Positions 25,466-53,299 of a stretch of DNA of 64,000 nucleotides are shown here, piece by piece. The stretch comes from Natronomonas salsuginis (lineage in GTDB: Archaea > Halobacteriota > Halobacteria > Halobacteriales > Haloarculaceae): contig NZ_QKNX01000005.1 in NCBI RefSeq assembly GCF_005239135.1, positions 1 through 64,000 of the forward strand, given 5' to 3'. A program made the position numbers and the translations under genes. Position 1 is the first letter of the stretch; the number at the start of each line of letters is the position of its first letter. Below the pieces are notes generated by a model. It saw nothing but the letters and a program-made list of their open reading frames with translations. It was not told the origin of the DNA and did not search any database.

Positions 25466-26830
<1,365 letters not shown>

Positions 26831-35520: not shown

Positions 35521-36033
35521 ATGACATTACTAGACGTTAACCGACTTTCATCTCGGGCCGACACGAAAGACAGCGGTGTAGAAGCTGTCAACAACGTCGA
35601 TCTCTCTATTAACCATGGAGAAACCGTGAGGCTCGTCGGCGAGTCAGGGGGAGAAAAAAGCGTCACGGCAATTAGTGTCATGGGTCTTGTCAACTCACCT
35701 GAAAAGTTGTGGGGATCAGTTATCTGGAACGACGAAGGCCTCTTGTCTACCTCAAATTCGCGCCTCGAAAATATCCGAGATGATGTGTTGAGCATAATTC
35801 TGCAAGATTCGATGGGGAGCCTACATCTCGTTCACAGGCCGGAGATCAGATTTTGGAAACGTTCTCACGATGTCATCAAAGGAAAGGAGCAGACTACCCC
35901 GAACCTGAAGAGCTACTGCTCCTTTGAGCAGAAGCGCATGGCTTCGAAGGCGATCTCTGGTCTTTCCCTTGCCTTGTCTGGCTTCCTGAGGATGAATTTG
36001 ATGTGGATTTCCTCCCGCACCGCCGGCAATTAA
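35521..36033 (+). pseudogene. Peptide/oligopeptide ABC transporter ATPase, decayed
   Basis: The 170-codon frame begins like a DppD/OppD ATPase: MTLLDVNRLSSRADTKDSGV, then EAVNNVDLSINHGETVRLVG. The Walker A region reads GESGGEKS instead of GESGSGKS, so an Lys-Ser pair remains but the glycine pattern is broken. Traces of the Q-loop follow (SIILQDSMGSLHLVH, normally FQDPMTSLNPV), after which the frame loses similarity. No ABC signature or Walker B is left. With the domain truncated to about 100 recognisable residues it is a pseudogene. No partner permease genes are nearby. Confidence 0.7.
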
Positions 36034-40069: not shown

Positions 40070-40996
40070 TCACACCGTGATAATCGTGCTTCTCGGATTG
40101 CCTCCTCGTTCGTAGTTGGTGAACGCAATAACAAGACGCAGACACAACGAGTACATGAACACTTGTGCTTATCCATGGACGCGGCCTCGGGCGCTGACAT
40201 GCCCGAGGCCGCAGTGCTTGAGTGCATCGTTAGTTCGTTCGACGCCTGTCCGGCGGTTGTACATCTCATCTAACGTCAATTGCTTCAGCTTCACGTCCTT
40301 GCTGTGCTCGTTGATACGGTCTTCGACCCTGTACTCAATGTACAGTCGATTGTCGGTGCTTCGTGCGTTGTACGGGGCGAGTGGCACGACTAATGTCAAA
40401 CACTTGCTGTCGCAGAATTCGCGATCAAGGTAGGCGGCATTGACCTCGACGTCAAGGCCGTCGAGGAGACCAAGAAATTCAGCGAGGACGCTGCTGGCAG
40501 TGTTGCCGTCTTCGAGACGGCGGACCGACTGGGTGTAACGTCTGTCCTTCACACGCGCGTAGGGTGTCGCGTAGGCGTGGAACGCGATGGTTCCACGCTT
40601 CACTTGGAAGTAATAGAGGCAGCCGGTGTCGTCTTCGTCACCGCAGTAGGGCCGCAGGTGGAGGTCTGCGACGATCTCCACCTGCTCGGATAGCAGTTCG
40701 ACGACATCCCGCCGAAGAAGCGTGTTAGCGACTCGTTCGAGCCGTTCCGGCTCGAACTTCGTCCGTAGATGGTAGAGGATCGCGATCGCCGGTGGCGAGT
40801 CCTCGCTAGAGTTGCATAGCGTCGAGATCGAGGCCCCGTCGGCGGTCGCGCCGATGAGGACCTCGTAAATGCCCTCTACGGCGATTTCAGCGTTGTTGGC
40901 AAGACTGAGAGAAACTTCATCGTCAAGCCGGTTGACGAGGAAGTTAAGCAGCTGGTCTTCATGGATTTCACTGTCTGCTTGCTGGTTGGAGTGCAC
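40070..40996 (-). pseudogene. Chimeric transposase: ISH3-type N-terminus joined to another family's C-terminus
   Basis: The first ~190 residues (LLNFLVNRLDDEVSLSLANN, ADGASISTLCNSSEDSPPAI, VADLHLRPYCGDEDDTGCLY) are ISH3/IS4-like. After CDSKCLTL the frame switches to VVPLAPYNARSTDNRLYIEY and YNRRTGVERTNDALKHCGLG. That is the C-terminal half of the transposase whose N-terminus is decayed at 11.76-12.12 kb. A TAA follows HVSARGRVHG, but homology continues to CLRLVIAFTNYERGGNPRST and a stop at 40070. It is a recombined and interrupted gene, not a functional transposase. Confidence 0.7.
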
Positions 40997-43652: not shown

Positions 43653-44810
43653 TCAAATAACGTTATCTTCTTTGAAGCGTTCGATCTCATCGTCATCAAA
43701 ACCCAATTGTTTGAGGACTTCTTTATTATCGCTACCTGGTGGTTTGGGCTTCTTTCGGACCGGAAGCGTATCGTTATTTATAAGAAGTGGATTCCGAATC
43801 ATTTGTAGACCATCTGACTCAACAAGTAATTCGGCAAGGTAATCATCATCCCACATTTCTAATGTGTCATAAACCGGTGCGACAGCTATGTCGTGTTCTC
43901 TCAAGAGTTCCAGCCAATATTCCGACGGTTTCTTTTCGAAAACAGAATCAAGAATATCGTATAAGGCCTCTTCGTTCTCCAACCGTTTATCATTCGATTC
44001 AAATCTTGGGTCATCTTTTAAGTCCTTTCTCCCAATAGCGTCGCAGAATCTGACCCATTGATATCTGGATCCCACCATGAGCATGATCTCGGAATCCTCT
44101 GTCTCAAACAGATCTATTGGTGCCCCTGCTGGATGGCGGTTGCCTTTTCGAGGATACGGTTCACCCGTAACAAAAGTTTCAGCAGCTCTCGGGGCTAGCC
44201 AAGAGACAAAAGCGTCTAACATCGGAATTTCAATGTAATGACCACTTTTGCCGTTCACATCCCTGTCATACAGAGCAAAAAGGATAGACTGGGCAGTATA
44301 CATGCTCGCTGCGAGGTCGCCTATCGGTACTGCTTCCCGAAGCGGTTGGCCATCCGGTTCGCCGGTAACACTCATTGCACCACCCATCGCTTGAATTACT
44401 GGGCCGTAAGCGGGCAAGTCCTCGTACTTACTGCCTTCTCGGAAGCCATGAACAGAACAATAAATTATATCATCGTTAATCTCACTGACATCCTCATACG
44501 AAAGTCCCACTTCATCTAGTGTCCCAGGTTTTAAGTTCTCGACAAGAACGTCAGCATCCTTGAGCAGTTCCTTTATGATTGAAACGCCTCGATCGGTTTT
44601 TATATTTGCCGTAACGCAACATTTATTCCGATTTACAGTCACGTAATGCGATCCCAAACCCTCCATTCTCGGCCCTGTTTCCCGGATAAGTTCTCCCTCA
44701 CCAGGTCGCTCGATTTTTGTTACGCCCGCCCCCATATCACCTAACATTGTCCCAGCAAAAGGAACGGTGATCATTTGTCCAATTTCGACAATCTCTATAT
44801 CGTCAAGCAT
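43653..44810 (-). CDS. CaiB/BaiF family (class III) CoA-transferase
   Basis: 385 aa from ATG 44810 (MLDDIEIVEIGQMITVPFAG). The longer frame to 44942 runs into transposase debris. Class III enzymes transfer CoA between carboxylates such as succinate, malate, itaconate or aromatic acids. Seen: MLGDMGAGVTKIERPGEGEL, VTVNRNKCCVTANIKTDRGV, DVLVENLKPGTLDEVGLSYE, QAMGGAMSVTGEPDGQPLRE with the catalytic Asp in AVPIGDLAASMY, and KSGHYIEIPMLDAFVSWLAP. A TATA-like TTTTATTT lies about 26 nt upstream. It is a single gene, not adjacent to the tandem pair at 49.9-52.1 kb. It could be homodimeric. Confidence 0.9.
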   Translation of the reverse strand: MLDDIEIVEIGQMITVPFAGTMLGDMGAGVTKIERPGEGELIRETGPRMEGLGSHYVTVNRNKCCVTANIKTDRGVSIIKELLKDADVLVENLKPGTLDEVGLSYEDVSEINDDIIYCSVHGFREGSKYEDLPAYGPVIQAMGGAMSVTGEPDGQPLREAVPIGDLAASMYTAQSILFALYDRDVNGKSGHYIEIPMLDAFVSWLAPRAAETFVTGEPYPRKGNRHPAGAPIDLFETEDSEIMLMVGSRYQWVRFCDAIGRKDLKDDPRFESNDKRLENEEALYDILDSVFEKKPSEYWLELLREHDIAVAPVYDTLEMWDDDYLAELLVESDGLQMIRNPLLINNDTLPVRKKPKPPGSDNKEVLKQLGFDDDEIERFKEDNVI

Positions 44811-44876
44811 TACGCGAAAGTCGGGAGAGTAGGAAATAAAACTTTGGTCTCTGGTGAATAGCCAGATAGTGCCGGG

Positions 44877-45130
44877 TTGATCCGTCACAACTAGAGCGTT
44901 GAAGCGGGAAGCGGCGGATGCTTCACGTCCGAAATTTCCCACTTCACGGGGCAGGTCGTATTGGCTTCAGGTGCTGTTGGGGGCCGAGGTCCGTCGGATA
45001 CTCGATCAGCTGGAATTTCACTACACGCCAATTCATGGCAGCTGGCTCAACATGACTGAGATCGAAATCAACCTCTACACTCGCAGTGTCTTGCGCGACG
45101 TATTCCCAATGCAGCGACTCCCCGGTCGGA
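44877..45130 (+). pseudogene. Joined remnants of IS5- and IS630-type transposases
   Basis: The first part (44877-44960) matches the start of the IS5-type remnant at 10.57-10.66 kb, including TSEISHFTGQVVLASG. From about 44970 the frame continues as VRRILDQLEFHYTPIHGSWL and NMTEIEINLYTRSV, the third catalytic region of IS630-type transposases (family pattern HYTPxHGSWLNxAEIE). Two unrelated elements are thus fused within 250 bp. Neither can be active. Confidence 0.65.
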
Positions 45131-45268: not shown

Positions 45269-46072
45269 TTACTCGTGCTCGGCCTTGCCTGGAACCTCCG
45301 GAGGAGCACATTGTAATCCGCCGTCAACGCTAAGGATTTCTCCCGTAGTATACCCATTTGTCGGCGATAACAGATACACAACTGATTCAGCAACATCACT
45401 CGGTTCACCAATTTCGCCGATTGGAACCAAGCTTCGCCGCTTATTAAGCAGATCATCATCCGTATATAGATTGTCCGTTGCCGGCGTCCAGATCATTCCG
45501 GGACAAACTGCATTAACCCGGATGCCGAATTCTGCCCATTCAATCGCCATCTGTTGTGTAAGTTTGATAATAGACGCTTTACTTGGGGTGTATGCCCCAG
45601 CACCAGGTTGAGGTACCAATCCTGCTACAGATGAAAGATTAACTATCGAACCTTCCTCATCATTTTCTGCCAACGATTTAGCGACAGTCCGTGATACGAG
45701 GAAAGTCGATGTTGTATTTACAGCCATAACTTTGTCCCACTCGTCTACGGACAATTCGGTAAGGGGAGAAGCAGAATTCGCGCCGGCATTGTTGACAACA
45801 AGCTGGGGAGTCCCCAATTCCTCCTCCACCTTAGATATCATTTGCTCAACTTCAGCTTCTTGGCTTACGTCACCAAGAAGTTTAATGGCCTCGCTGCCTT
45901 CTTCCTGAACCAATTGGACTGTCTCTTCAGCCCTCTCCTCGTATATGTCATTTACTGCTACATCCGCACCTAGTTCTGCAAGAGTTGTTGCTATTTCTTG
46001 TCCAATACCCTGGCCTGCACCCGTAACGAATGCCGTCTTTCCATCGAAGAGACCGCTCTTGTACATGCTCAT
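45269..46072 (-). CDS. Short-chain dehydrogenase/reductase (SDR)
   Basis: 267 aa from ATG 46072. The frame extends to 46138, but a TATA box at 46092-46102 lies inside that extension and 25 nt from 46072, so the shorter start is chosen. Classical SDR: TGAGQGIGQEIATTLAELGA, acidic VAVNDIYEE after beta-2 (NAD preference), NNAGANSASPL, Ser in VNLSSVAGLVPQPGAG, AYTPSKASIIKLT (Tyr-Lys), VNAVCPGMIWTPATD and GEILSVDGGLQCAPPE. Similar to FabG-like dehydrogenases. Likely oxidises a hydroxyacyl-CoA or sugar-acid intermediate of the island's pathway. Lies just downstream of transposase debris, 460 bp from the CaiB gene. Confidence 0.88.
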   Translation of the reverse strand: MSMYKSGLFDGKTAFVTGAGQGIGQEIATTLAELGADVAVNDIYEERAEETVQLVQEEGSEAIKLLGDVSQEAEVEQMISKVEEELGTPQLVVNNAGANSASPLTELSVDEWDKVMAVNTTSTFLVSRTVAKSLAENDEEGSIVNLSSVAGLVPQPGAGAYTPSKASIIKLTQQMAIEWAEFGIRVNAVCPGMIWTPATDNLYTDDDLLNKRRSLVPIGEIGEPSDVAESVVYLLSPTNGYTTGEILSVDGGLQCAPPEVPGKAEHE

Positions 46073-46091
46073 AGAGTGCTTGCCCATCCAT

Positions 46092-46102
46092 GATATATTA
46101 AT
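46092..46102 (-). promoter_or_regulatory. TATA box deciding the SDR start
   Basis: TTAATATATC on the minus strand, 25 nt ahead of ATG 46072. It indicates a leaderless transcript and excludes the longer frame start at 46138. Confidence 0.5.
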
Positions 46103-46138
46103 GCTTTGATATTCCACCATACGTACAAAGTAATTCAC

Positions 46139-47846: not shown

Positions 47847-49259
47847 TTATATCTTAAGGCTATTGATAATATTATTTATCGAATTTTCCGATTTGAGATT
47901 GAAACAGTTTTCAGCCAGCGTTTCTATTTGTTGCCCGGACAAATATGGATCCATCAAATCTTCAGCTTTTGATCGTAACTCGTCGTTCGTCATGGGACGC
48001 TCTGGATGGCCTTTTGGATAATTGACGCGTTTCCTATGCTTTTCTCCGCTCGCTTCAATGGCTACCTTTGAAGGCATATGACGCGGGTTTTCCATTCGGT
48101 ATTGATCAAGATCTTCGTCAGCTTGGACCGATACCTTCTGCATCATTTGATAGATTTGCTCATCTTGGAGATGCTCTTCATTGTATTGCTCGGGAGTCAC
48201 TTCGTCATCTATGATGGCAACGGATACATTATATGGGAGACTGTGATCGGCGGTTTCACGATTCATATCTCGAGCCCACTTTTCCGGGCCGCTAGCATAA
48301 CCTTCCACAGCCTGTGTAAACGTCTCTACTTCAATTTTCTCGATATCGTTCGGATCAATATTATTCTCACGAACAATATCAAGGGCGGCTGTAACTGATG
48401 GATGAGTATAGAAGCCACACGCAAACGTCTTGAAGCTTGTTTCCATGACTCGATAATCTTCCACGCCGTTTCTACCACCTAAGTCCTCAAGACTGACTGG
48501 CTCTTTTGAAACGACTTCGAAGAAGCCACGATCGCCCTCAAAAACCTGTTTTGGCCCGGTGATTCCATTACGAGCCATCTGACAAGCCTGAATAGCATTA
48601 TGAGTAACATAGGGAACAGCCATTCCTTTATACATAGAGACAGTTCCCAAGCGCGCTATTAAAAGACCGTTATTATTAGAACCAGCTATGCCGAACGCAT
48701 TTATCAGTTGGTCCTTATCCAGGTCCATTAATTTTCCTACAGCTGCAACAGACGAATATGCTGCCCAAGTAGAGTAATCAAAACCCTCCGCTGTAACGAT
48801 ACCAGTATCAACTCCACGGCATTGAATTTCATATGCGATGACAACCGATTCAATCAAATCTGCCCCACTCGCCTGCTCCGCTTCTGCAACTGAAACTAAT
48901 GCCGGGATATGGTCACTTGGGTGGCACGCCGCTGACTGGGTCGTGTAACAATCATTGAAATCAAGATATCTACCCATGATACCATTGATTAAAGCACCAT
49001 ATTCGACATCGACGTTTTTTCCACTTCCAAATATAGTCGATTCGGATCCTCCAGAATCCCGATTATCGTATACTTGGCGGATTTTCTTACTTGGGGGACT
49101 ATTGAATGCGCCGAGCGCACACCCAATTGTGTCAAGAGTAAGTCTTTCGACCTGTTCCTCGACTTCCTCGGGTAGATCGTCGATCGATATTTGCTTCGTG
49201 TACTCGGCCAAGCTTTCGCTGGAAAGTTCCATAGAATTCGTAATTACCTTCTCATACAT
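47847..49259 (-). CDS. MmgE/PrpD family protein, second paralogue
   Basis: 470 aa from ATG 49259 (MYEKVITNSMELSSESLAEY), or 461 aa from ATG 49232. The frame stays open to 49466 only because the upstream tandem repeats lack stops. Family features: LAEYTKQISIDDLPEEVEEQ, VERLTLDTIGCALGAFNSPP, GRYLDFNDCYTTQSAACHPS (putative active-site region: DxND with His), NGITGPKQVFEGDRGFFEVV and NRETADHSLPYNVSVAIIDD. The last, with ADHSLPY, is a signature of the 2-methylcitrate dehydratase branch and is absent from the paralogue at 34.1 kb, so the two probably have different substrates. Confidence 0.87.
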   Translation of the reverse strand: MYEKVITNSMELSSESLAEYTKQISIDDLPEEVEEQVERLTLDTIGCALGAFNSPPSKKIRQVYDNRDSGGSESTIFGSGKNVDVEYGALINGIMGRYLDFNDCYTTQSAACHPSDHIPALVSVAEAEQASGADLIESVVIAYEIQCRGVDTGIVTAEGFDYSTWAAYSSVAAVGKLMDLDKDQLINAFGIAGSNNNGLLIARLGTVSMYKGMAVPYVTHNAIQACQMARNGITGPKQVFEGDRGFFEVVSKEPVSLEDLGGRNGVEDYRVMETSFKTFACGFYTHPSVTAALDIVRENNIDPNDIEKIEVETFTQAVEGYASGPEKWARDMNRETADHSLPYNVSVAIIDDEVTPEQYNEEHLQDEQIYQMMQKVSVQADEDLDQYRMENPRHMPSKVAIEASGEKHRKRVNYPKGHPERPMTNDELRSKAEDLMDPYLSGQQIETLAENCFNLKSENSINNIINSLKI

Positions 49260-49296
49260 AATACCACTTGATTTCGCAGGCCATGTTCGAATCAAG

Positions 49297-49365
49297 CGGA
49301 TTGCCAGATAAAAGAGACCCGGATTGCCAAATAAAAGAGACCCGGATTGCCAAATAAAAGAGACC
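49297..49365. repeat. Three tandem 23-bp repeats upstream of the second MmgE/PrpD gene
   Basis: Units at 49297-49319, 49320-49342 and 49343-49365 are head-to-tail copies. The second and third are identical and the first differs at one base (G for A). Each contains TTGCCAAATAAAAGAGACC. Read toward the gene on the minus strand, every unit carries a TATA-like TTTTATTT. The array lies 38-106 bp ahead of ATG 49259. It may be a multiplied promoter element or binding site, or a slippage product. Confidence 0.85.
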
Positions 49366-49466
49366 ACCCGACCACCGCCGTTACTTACCGACCCGCGTAA
49401 TTGCCAAGGTTGAACCGTCACACTAATTACAGCAGTTTCTGCGACGGTACGATCATCCGTCAGCAC

Positions 49467-49899: not shown

Positions 49900-51057
49900 C
49901 TAGTTAATAACGTTTTCTGAACGGAGCTGTTCGAGAGTGGCTCGATTGTACCCGAGAATCTCGGAGAGAATCTGGTCGGTGTGTTCGCCTACTTCTGGGG
50001 CTTCCCGAGATTCCGTTTCCGAAGCGGACTGTTTGGCGGATGTATACGGTGACACCGGCAGCCGCATTGATTCGCCCCCATAGTTCACCTTATCAAAGGC
50101 GCCTCGTTGCTCCAAGTGTCTTGATTCCGCGACATCCTCAATTGATTGGACTTTGCTAGCTTTCACTCCGCTTTGTGAGCAAGTCTTGATAACTTCCTGT
50201 GTGGGGCGTTGTACCGCCCACTCTGCAACCACGTTTTCCACAGCGTCGTCAGAATTGCCCCAGTCTATGGCTGGGTCAGTGTTCTGAATATTGGTCTTTA
50301 GACGTTCACAGGACTCTTCATCCTGAACAGAAATAGTAACCCAGTCTGTTTCCGTTTCGAACACCCCAGCCAGCGCTTCAGGGGAACGACTCGGCCCGTG
50401 ATTGGTGGGCTCGTTCGAGAATGGTAGCCGCGACTGCAACATCCAAGCGGCGCAGTCTTGCATTGAGATATCTATATGCTGACCTTCACCCGTCGACTTT
50501 CGTTCATATAATGCTGTTATAATAGCAGTAGCAGAGACGAATCCCGGAAGAACATCCATTACCGACGGACCAAGTTTAACCGGACCATCGCCTTTGAATC
50601 CGGTTAAATTCATTAATCCAGACATTGCCTGAATGGTAGAATCGTAGGCCCTTTGATTTGTTTCGGCGGAATCGTGTCCAAACCCGGAGATCGAACAATA
50701 TATTAACGAATTGTTCTCATTTCGGAGTTCTTCAGGACCCAAACCGAGTTCAGTAAGCGTCTGGGGGCGAAAATTCTCTATGAGGACGTCTGCTTCGTTT
50801 GCAAGTGACTTCACAATCTCCTGTCCCTGTTCACTGTCGATATTAACACCTAAACTTTTTTTATTATAATTGCCACTTTGGAATGCATACGACATCTCAT
50901 CAGAATCTGCAGATGGATTGGGGCGTCCACTTTCTCCGCCATCTGGCCGTTCTATCTTAATGACTTCACTCACTAGTGGATCGAGCAGCCAAGAAGCCAT
51001 GGGACCCGCAGTAATTTGGCCCATATCCAAAACTCGGACTTCAGAAATCGGTTTCAT
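49900..51057 (-). CDS. CaiB/BaiF CoA-transferase, catalytic member of a tandem pair
   Basis: 385 aa. Class III CoA-transferase: VRVLDMGQITAGPMASWLLD, VIKIERPDGGESGRPNPSAD, GNYNKKSLGVNIDSEQGQEI, VLIENFRPQTLTELGLGPEE, then QAMSGLMNLTGFKGDGPVKL and Asp168 in GPSVMDVLPGF. Asp168 is the residue that forms the acyl-anhydride and CoA-ester intermediates (Asp169 in formyl-CoA transferase). Its start overlaps the stop of the upstream paralogue by 4 nt (ATGA, 51054-51057). That upstream protein lacks the Asp, so this one is likely the active chain of a heterodimer. Last gene of the operon ACAD (52139) - CaiB - CaiB. Confidence 0.9.
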   Translation of the reverse strand: MKPISEVRVLDMGQITAGPMASWLLDPLVSEVIKIERPDGGESGRPNPSADSDEMSYAFQSGNYNKKSLGVNIDSEQGQEIVKSLANEADVLIENFRPQTLTELGLGPEELRNENNSLIYCSISGFGHDSAETNQRAYDSTIQAMSGLMNLTGFKGDGPVKLGPSVMDVLPGFVSATAIITALYERKSTGEGQHIDISMQDCAAWMLQSRLPFSNEPTNHGPSRSPEALAGVFETETDWVTISVQDEESCERLKTNIQNTDPAIDWGNSDDAVENVVAEWAVQRPTQEVIKTCSQSGVKASKVQSIEDVAESRHLEQRGAFDKVNYGGESMRLPVSPYTSAKQSASETESREAPEVGEHTDQILSEILGYNRATLEQLRSENVIN

Positions 51058-52127
51058 TCGTTTCCACCTGCCTCGTGGTTTAACGCGGAGGTTTGATATG
51101 CCTCACTGTCAATCGATTGTTCTAATGATAGAGGTGGCCTGACCACCAAATCTCCGTCTAAATCAGTGGTCATCTGCCTATGATCGAGATTTGGATGGGT
51201 AAATGCCTGCTGAACGTCCTTGATTTCTGTTGCGACAACCCCGTGATCATCGGCTAGTTCAAGTATGTCAGACACACTTCTCTTAGATACCCATTGCTCG
51301 ATTATATCGTTAATCTCATCGACGTTAGCTTTTCGCTTGGCCATTGAGGAGAATCGAGGATCGCCGTCTAAGTCCTGGCGGCCCAAGAGGTCTAGTAACC
51401 GTTTCCAGTCACGGTTTGTATACGCAATAAGAAATACCCACCCGTCTTCCGCTTCAAACGCGTTCCAAGGCGCTACTAGCGGATGTTGATTCCCAGATCG
51501 GTCTATTTGTTGGCCAGTACCGAAATATTTGCCAAGGAATGTTCTGTTGAGGGGTAACAAAGCGTCTTGAACTGATATATCAATACTATCTTCCCCATCC
51601 TCGTCTGAAAGAGAATAGATTATTGATCCAAGTCCAACTAACGAGGCGAACGTTGCTCCGATATGAGCGGCGGTCAACGCTGGTTTACCCCCTTCGAACC
51701 CGGTCGTATGGCTTATACCAGACATAGCCTGGGTTGTCATGTTATCACCGTCTTTTTCTGCAAGCGGCCCGGTCCGACCATATGGTGTGATCGAACAGTA
51801 CGTAATGTCGGGATTAATATCTCTAAGGGTTGACTCCGAATACTTGTCTTGCGGGTTTGGTGTGTCAATTATAAACACGTCCGCAGTCTTTATGAGATCC
51901 TCGAATTTGCTATATTGACCATCGGTATGGACACCAGATTTGTTAACACAATACATCTTGAAGATGTGCTCATCGGTTTCAGCATCACCAGTCAAAGACC
52001 GTAGCGGGTGTCCATCAGGTTCCTCGACGAGATGCACTGACGCGCCAAAATCCGATAAAAGACGTCCGCACATTGCCCCTCTGGGCGATTGACTGCGTTC
52101 GACGACTGTAATATCTTTAAGAGCCAT
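51054..52127 (-). CDS. CaiB/BaiF family protein lacking the catalytic Asp
   Basis: 357 aa. The same fold as its downstream neighbour: KDITVVERSQSPRGAMCGRL, VHLVEEPDGHPLRSLTGDAE, DVFIIDTPNPQDKYSESTLR, QAMSGISHTTGFEGGKPALT, DSIDISVQDALLPLNRTFLG. Aligning from the shared AMSG without gaps, the catalytic Asp168 of the neighbour falls on Ala158 here (AAHIGATFASLV). The protein therefore cannot run the usual anhydride chemistry and probably serves as the structural partner in a heterodimer, as known for BbsEF-type class III transferases. It also shows an atypical N-terminal catalytic-loop region. Start ATG 52127, 11 nt after the acyl-CoA dehydrogenase stop. Confidence 0.85.
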   Translation of the reverse strand: MALKDITVVERSQSPRGAMCGRLLSDFGASVHLVEEPDGHPLRSLTGDAETDEHIFKMYCVNKSGVHTDGQYSKFEDLIKTADVFIIDTPNPQDKYSESTLRDINPDITYCSITPYGRTGPLAEKDGDNMTTQAMSGISHTTGFEGGKPALTAAHIGATFASLVGLGSIIYSLSDEDGEDSIDISVQDALLPLNRTFLGKYFGTGQQIDRSGNQHPLVAPWNAFEAEDGWVFLIAYTNRDWKRLLDLLGRQDLDGDPRFSSMAKRKANVDEINDIIEQWVSKRSVSDILELADDHGVVATEIKDVQQAFTHPNLDHRQMTTDLDGDLVVRPPLSLEQSIDSEAYQTSALNHEAGGNE

Positions 52128-52138
52128 TTGTAATTATC

Positions 52139-53299
52139 TCATTTGTAGCCTAATTCGTGATCCGCTATCATGACTGTGTGTATATCATTGGTTCCGTCAT
52201 AGAGCTTGCTCACTTTCGAGTTCCGGAAGTGTCTCCCAACGCTGTAGCTACTTTCTGCGATCCCGTTCGCACCGTGAAGTTGAACAGCGTCTTCAGCAGC
52301 CTGGTGCGCCGCGTTCGTAGTAAACCGTTTTGCCATGGACGCGCTTTGCTGGGCATGATCTACTCCACGGTCTTTCATATCCGCCAATTTAAACGTGAGT
52401 AGTTTTGCCGCTTCATAATTTTCACGCATATTGGCGATTTTCTGTTTTACCAACTGGTACTCCCCGATATTTTGATCAAACACTTCACGCTGATTGGCGT
52501 ACTCGATGGATTCCTTTAGGCATTGTTGGAGGACACCAAGACCACGTGATGCACAAGCAAGTCGACCGATTTCTGTACCGGTCATTAATACTTTGTACCC
52601 TTTCCCTTCTTCACCAATACGGTTCTCAACAGGGACGCGAACGTCATTCAATTTTACTGCGCCTGAAGAAAGGGTTCGTGATCCAGTAATTGGCTTTTCA
52701 ACCCTTGTTTCTATACCATCCCAGTCTCTTTCGATTATAACAGCAATCGTTCCCTGATATGCCGGTTCCGCATCCGGATCGAGTTGAGCAAAGGTCAAGA
52801 ACCATTCAGCGAGATCCAGATTACTTATCCACATCTTCTCTCCGTTGATGACATATTCATCACCGTCACGCTCAGCCGTTGTATGTAAATTTCGAACGAC
52901 ATCAGTTCCAGAATGAGGCTCTGTAACTGCTGTGGCACCAGTCGCTTTGCCTTCGGCCATAGGCTTCAGATACTTTTTCTTCAACTCCTCGCTCCCATAT
53001 TCCAGCGTTCCACGGCCGAGTGAGCAACTGACCGCACCCGCAAGGGTGGCAGCACGCTCTGAGAACCTTGCAAACTCTTCTATGATAAGTACCAACGACA
53101 CATAATCGAGTTCGGACCCGCCGTATTCCTCCGGCAATGTACCGCCCATAAAGCCTAATTCGGCAAGCTGTTCCGGGAGTTCAGGAGGAATCTCACCGGT
53201 TTGATCCCATTCCGCTACGTTGGGTTTCAATTCGTTCTCGGCGAATTCCTTGGCGAGCTGTCGGATCTGTCTTTGCTCCTCTGTGAGTTCGAAATTCAT
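52139..53299 (-). CDS. Acyl-CoA dehydrogenase, first gene of the CoA-transferase operon
   Basis: 386 aa, normal length. N-terminal MNFELTEEQRQIRQLAKEFA, then LPEEYGGSELDYVSLVLIIE, TAVTEPHSGTDVVRNLHTTA (FAD/substrate loop), INGEKMWISNLDLAEWFLTF, LGVLQQCLKESIEYANQREV, FGQ-like FDQNIGEYQLVKQKIANMRE, and VQLHGANGIAESSYSVGRHF. The catalytic base loop reads KLYDGTNDIHTVMIADH, so the usual YEGT is YDGT. Asp for Glu would shorten the side chain and merits checking. Followed by two CaiB genes with 11-nt and overlapping spacing. Acyl-CoA dehydrogenase with a paired CoA-transferase is the layout of benzylsuccinate-type pathways (BbsEFG). TATA at 53331-53339. Confidence 0.9.
   Translation of the reverse strand: MNFELTEEQRQIRQLAKEFAENELKPNVAEWDQTGEIPPELPEQLAELGFMGGTLPEEYGGSELDYVSLVLIIEEFARFSERAATLAGAVSCSLGRGTLEYGSEELKKKYLKPMAEGKATGATAVTEPHSGTDVVRNLHTTAERDGDEYVINGEKMWISNLDLAEWFLTFAQLDPDAEPAYQGTIAVIIERDWDGIETRVEKPITGSRTLSSGAVKLNDVRVPVENRIGEEGKGYKVLMTGTEIGRLACASRGLGVLQQCLKESIEYANQREVFDQNIGEYQLVKQKIANMRENYEAAKLLTFKLADMKDRGVDHAQQSASMAKRFTTNAAHQAAEDAVQLHGANGIAESSYSVGRHFRNSKVSKLYDGTNDIHTVMIADHELGYK

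Follow-up and report, generated by a model that had tools for sequence, protein, structure and literature searches.

A few bacterial pathways are known to use heteromeric class III CoA-transferases. One of them is BbsEF, which is made of two different CaiB subunits and has BbsG as its acyl-CoA dehydrogenase (ACAD) partner; its structure has been solved, and the title of PDB entry 9fol describes a BbsEF D178-CoA adduct with succinate. Another case is DddD, the DMSP CoA-transferase/lyase, whose catalytic Asp lies in the C-terminal domain. In the DddD of Endozoicomonas two CaiB domains (residues 1-416 and 439-821) are found in one chain and act as one protein (PMC7174347), so that both heteromeric and fused enzymes of this class are already known. 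The acetyl-CoA:oxalate CoA-transferase YfdE (PDB 4hl6) is a homodimer with two complete sites, each of which takes Asp173 from one subunit and His233, in the GNxH loop opposite the Asp, from the other (PMC3720670). Finally, among the haloarchaea, the succinyl-CoA:mesaconate CoA-transferase (Mct) of Haloarcula is a class III enzyme with a GNxH loop (PMC5592240); it consists of only one kind of polypeptide, which has its own Asp.

We analysed a stretch of 64,000 nucleotides of Natronomonas salsuginis (contig NZ_QKNX01000005.1, positions 1 to 64,000; hereafter the window), taken from a 2.9-Mb assembly in which five CaiB genes are present. The window contains an operon in which an ACAD gene (P0003) is followed by two CaiB genes, P0002 and P0001 (Table 1). 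Coordinates and strand were confirmed exactly, as were the overlap of the two CaiB genes at ATGA and the gap of 11 nt between the stop of P0003 and the start of P0002. The TATA-like element is a possible promoter of the operon. The Pfam family PF02515 covers the full length of both CaiB proteins, which places them in the class III CoA-transferase superfamily. Their AlphaFold models (pLDDT 89.5 and pTM 0.86 for P0002, 88.5 and 0.88 for P0001) have the CaiB fold, with best PDB fold matches at TM 0.84-0.91. The two proteins share only 24% identity; they had been said to align without gaps from the AMSG motif onward, which holds up to the catalytic position (24 residues in each protein), but gaps occur elsewhere.

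Table 1. Features of the CoA-transferase locus, in positions of the window.
Feature	Position	Strand	Basis or remark
P0003, acyl-CoA dehydrogenase (ACAD) family, 386 aa	52139..53299	-	Pfam Acyl-CoA_dh N/M/C; first gene of the operon
P0002, class III CoA-transferase (CaiB) subunit without catalytic Asp, 357 aa	51054..52127	-	PF02515, E=1e-63
P0001, class III CoA-transferase (CaiB), predicted catalytic subunit, 385 aa	49900..51057	-	PF02515, E=1e-84
ATGA overlap, P0002 stop/P0001 start	51054..51057	-	Sequence
TATA-like element AAATATATAA	53332..53340	-	Upstream of the ACAD gene, about 37 nt from its start; read from the sequence
Codon of P0001 catalytic Asp168	50554..50556	-	All 114 single CaiB proteins have Asp in this alignment column
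Codon of P0002 Ala158 at the catalytic position	51654..51656	-	Alignment
GNQH loop of P0002 (G212-H215)	51483..51494	-	Alignment; would complete the active site of P0001 in trans
Degenerate loop of P0001 (residues 210-230) in place of GNxH	50368..50430	-	Alignment; pLDDT about 55
MmgE/PrpD family gene, downstream of the pair	47847..49466	-	Pfam MmgE_PrpD; start probably inside the listed ORF
SDR dehydrogenase	45269..46138	-	NCBIfam
P0004, internal control: a single CaiB of the ordinary kind, in which both Asp and GNRH are present	43653..44942	-	

Regarding the catalytic Asp, when the two proteins were aligned by MAFFT with 30 other CaiB sequences, mostly from the same order, Asp168 of P0001 fell on the Asp of the family and Ala158 of P0002 opposite to it, as had been proposed, and no other Asp of P0002 falls in the catalytic column. 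In a larger alignment all the 114 single-domain CaiB sequences have Asp in this column, and therefore the Ala of P0002 is more than a chance substitution. The AlphaFold models agree with the alignments, since Asp168 and Ala158 are each the third residue of the equivalent helix (residues 166-189 in P0001 and 156-174 in P0002); thus, in P0001 but not in P0002, the helix that follows the Rossmann part has the Asp at its N-terminus.

The GNxH loop shows the opposite pattern. P0002 has GNQH, with His215, whereas in P0001 the motif is lost and reads GPSR, with Arg in the His column; this region is modelled with high confidence in P0002 and with low confidence in P0001. The loss of the loop from P0001, together with its retention in P0002, is a point absent from the original prediction. 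The His is present in 88 of the 114 single-domain sequences and missing in the other 26, which means that its loss alone does not abolish activity. The decay also extends beyond these two residues and follows the domains. P0002 keeps 43% of the conserved positions of the large domain, below all the 114 single-domain sequences, and 68% of those of the small domain, within the range of the active ones. P0001, on the other hand, keeps 70% of the conserved large-domain positions and only 24% of the small-domain ones, again below all 114. This reciprocal retention and loss indicates that one composite site has been maintained and its mirror image has not.

On these grounds, we consider it very probable that P0002 and P0001 pair as a heterodimer to form a class III CoA-transferase, and that each dimer has a single functional active site. 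The working site would combine the large domain of P0001, with the CoA site and the nucleophile Asp168, and the small domain of P0002, with the GNQH loop and His215. The mirror site, made of the large domain of P0002 with Ala158 and the loopless small domain of P0001, has decayed and is predicted to be dead. According to the mechanism of the family, Asp168 would attack the donor acyl-CoA, giving a mixed anhydride, and CoA would then pass to the acceptor acid. This arrangement gives mutational predictions for Asp168 of one chain and His215 of the other. It is quite improbable that P0002 is instead a decaying or regulatory pseudoenzyme beside a P0001 that works as a homodimer: P0002 does evolve fast and has lost its C-terminal helices, but it retains the small-domain positions mentioned above, its ORF is intact with a stop overlapping the start of P0001, and P0001 itself is without the half-site of the small domain. 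Furthermore, the P0002/P0001 pairing is exactly what is kept in the fused homologues described below.

When about 85,000 species genomes were scanned, with P0002 leading, proteins in which two CaiB domains are fused came up in a Roseovarius MAG and a Bradyrhizobium, and more copies were then taken from plasmids and from the families of these genomes. The fused family is sparse: in one class it was found in 1 genome out of 337, and in two families in 2 of 218 and 9 of 219 genomes; examples are those of loci L175 and L162, WP_172977915.1 of Pseudorhizobium flavum and WP_082670593.1 of Paraburkholderia caribensis. We assigned the halves of the fused proteins by position only, so that the counts of Asp and His are not circular. 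Among 25 fused copies, some of which are near orthologues and thus not all independent, the catalytic column of the N-half has Glu in 22, Asp in 2 and Ala in 1, and the loop His is present in all the 25 N-halves. In the C-halves we found Asp in 25/25 and the loop His in 0/25. The conserved positions follow the same trend, with 43% of the large domain and 55% of the small domain kept in the N-halves and 70% and 18% in the C-halves.

Therefore, the pair of the window has the pattern of the fused family, that is, an N-part without Asp but with GNxH, placed before a C-part with Asp but without GNxH, and it shares the ACAD and MmgE/PrpD neighbours of these proteins of Pseudomonadota. The differences are that the window has two overlapping genes and not a single polypeptide, whereas the bacterial proteins are single chains of around 690-750 aa in which the small domain of the C-half is mostly gone, and that the catalytic position of the N-half is mostly Glu in the fused proteins and Ala in P0002. 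We accordingly regard the pair as the probable unfused counterpart of the fused family. What is new with respect to the known heteromeric and fused enzymes is the reciprocal decay of the half-sites, which follows the domains, is divided between two separate genes and recurs in the fused bacterial homologues. Our literature searches, whose coverage mostly left subscription journals outside, found no paper describing the fused CaiB-CaiB family. As a separate observation, the change from Asp to Glu is almost uniform (22/25) in the fused N-halves of L162-L176, and this Glu may have a retained structural or acid-base role instead of reflecting a simple loss.

The trees agree with this relationship. 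When the large domain was analysed with the catalytic column removed, P0001 was sister to all the C-halves (support 96/92), and the C clade and the N clade were each well supported. P0002 fell beside the N clade, apart from the single CaiB proteins, with support of 92/92 for the full length and 84/37 for the large domain alone; because of its very long branch (2.2-2.5 changes per column), it is placed with less certainty than P0001. For the full-length tree the column taken out was the neighbour of the catalytic one. Only P0002 has Ala at the catalytic column there, which therefore cannot draw it to the Glu-bearing N-halves. Reciprocal half-site loss, fused homologues with the same order and the position in the trees thus give strong support to an obligate heterodimer, and the original prediction was right in proposing a heterodimer with one catalytic subunit.

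The simplest reading of these trees would be that the pair of the window is an unfused outgroup of the fused family, although it may also have arisen by fission of a fused gene. Regarding other relatives, no close relative of P0001 or P0002 was found in the sampled order, none of P0001 or P0003 in the 392-393 genomes of the order and the phylum, and none at all of P0002 when genome contigs were scanned with it alone; an orthologue of the split P0002-P0001 pair was found nowhere else in the genomes searched. More tentatively, and with the balance somewhat against it, the archaeal pair could be a surviving pre-fusion form, so that the pair and the fused proteins together would show how a symmetric homodimer became a one-site enzyme by reciprocal half-site decay, in an uncharacterised MmgE/PrpD-ACAD pathway.

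The gene context was compared within 6 kb of 19 fused and 72 single-CaiB loci; these loci share ancestry, which makes the P values of the comparison too small. MmgE/PrpD genes occur at 12/19 fused loci and at 2/72 single-CaiB loci, ACAD at 13/19 and 16/72, another CaiB at 10/19 and 6/72, SDR at 9/19 and 9/72, and IclR at 7/19 and 3/72; Tct genes were not enriched at the fused loci in this comparison. The ACAD gene is directly before the fused gene at L132, L137, L166, L174 and L175 and flanks it at other loci. The same set is found in the window, where the CaiB pair and the ACAD are accompanied by two MmgE/PrpD genes, one single CaiB, an SDR, an IclR and a TctABC transporter. It is therefore likely that the MmgE/PrpD gene listed in Table 1 belongs to the same pathway as the pair, and the SDR dehydrogenase is a possible member. 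The pair would probably supply the ACAD P0003 with an activated carboxylic acid, and an MmgE/PrpD enzyme would act in the same pathway. Judging from the MmgE/PrpD and Tct neighbours, we infer that the substrate is perhaps a polycarboxylate and, as a guess, a di- or tricarboxylate. All this points to an acid-degradation pathway, still uncharacterised, that is common to a haloarchaeon and Pseudomonadota.

The same data bear on the analogy with BbsEF and BbsG, from which a succinate with a 2-substituent had been proposed as substrate. An ACAD beside a CaiB pair with one Asp-less subunit, and the fact that BbsEF itself is a solved heteromer with an adduct at D178, speak for a succinyl-CoA:2-substituted-succinate CoA-transferase of the BbsEF type with a BbsG-like dehydrogenase. 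But an ACAD beside an ordinary CaiB is common, as the 16 of 72 single-CaiB loci show; the relatives with the nearest architecture adjoin MmgE/PrpD genes and not bss/bbs genes; and no PFL-like glycyl-radical enzyme (PF02901) was matched in the genome, whereas the control genomes were positive. Moreover, judged by PDB sequence and fold matches, P0001 and P0002 are not closest to BbsE and BbsF. They are nearer to homodimeric enzymes, namely human SUGCT, YfdE (TM 0.88 against the fold of P0002) and a Brucella CoA-transferase whose structure was solved with succinate, although for the fold of P0001 this margin over BbsEF is small. Consequently, this alternative has very little probability. It is fair to say that the pair works like BbsEF, with one catalytic subunit per pair, but there is no support for calling it a BbsEF, and it is unlikely to carry out benzylsuccinate-type chemistry. 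For the haloarchaeal Mct, P0001 reaches 190 bits and P0002 134 bits, where the cut-off is 700 bits.

The ACAD has a peculiarity of its own. The usual catalytic base of these enzymes is Glu. P0003 has Asp368, in a YDGT motif, and all its 11 best relatives of the same phylum have Glu. Its identity to the best relatives in the phylum is 37-41%, and no orthologue was found in 393 genomes of the phylum. Most of the ACADs adjoining bacterial fused CaiB genes have Asp too (RMLPIPDGTN). As Asp replaces Glu as the presumed base of P0003, the pathway may be unusual, and DddD shows that two CaiB domains can act as a CoA-transferase/lyase (PMC7174347). Both points would suit a heterodimer of CaiB fold with another chemistry (a CoA-thioester isomerase, lyase or racemase), in the manner of DddD or the mesaconyl-CoA C1-C4 transferase. 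We consider this unlikely. DddD, by its description, is longer and acts in a different pathway, whereas the fused family is shorter and the small domain of its C-half is mostly gone. The one-site CoA-transferase remains our preferred reading, and the annotation 'CaiB/BaiF CoA-transferase' can hide non-catalytic subunits.

Other tandem CaiB genes were also considered. CaiB pairs of Roseobacter plasmids were rejected as split counterparts of the fused family, because both subunits keep the Asp. These pairs of Roseobacter/Roseibium plasmids (L130:11977-14322, L131, L134 and L135) are of a different kind, with the loop His in only one of the subunits, and they adjoin OB-fold and thiolase genes and an ACAD. 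A wider search of plasmids beyond the fused family gave matches that look like single CaiB genes aligned twice.

Finally, the GC content of the window between 36000 and 60000 is 0.42-0.52, versus 0.63-0.65 in stretches of three other contigs. This region is probably an acquired island that carries the CoA-transferase pair, an MmgE/PrpD gene and the TctABC transporter. A TnpB-like gene (OrfB_IS605 / Cas12f1-like TNB; 25577-26788) and a DDE transposase ORF (40169-40996) adjoin the low-GC region, and a short ORF at 35521-36033, which weakly matches the ATPase of ABC transporters, is apparently a relic. Just upstream of the likely start of the MmgE/PrpD gene, at 49297-49365, a 23-bp unit, CGGATTGCCAAATAAAAGAGACC, is repeated in tandem in three nearly perfect copies.
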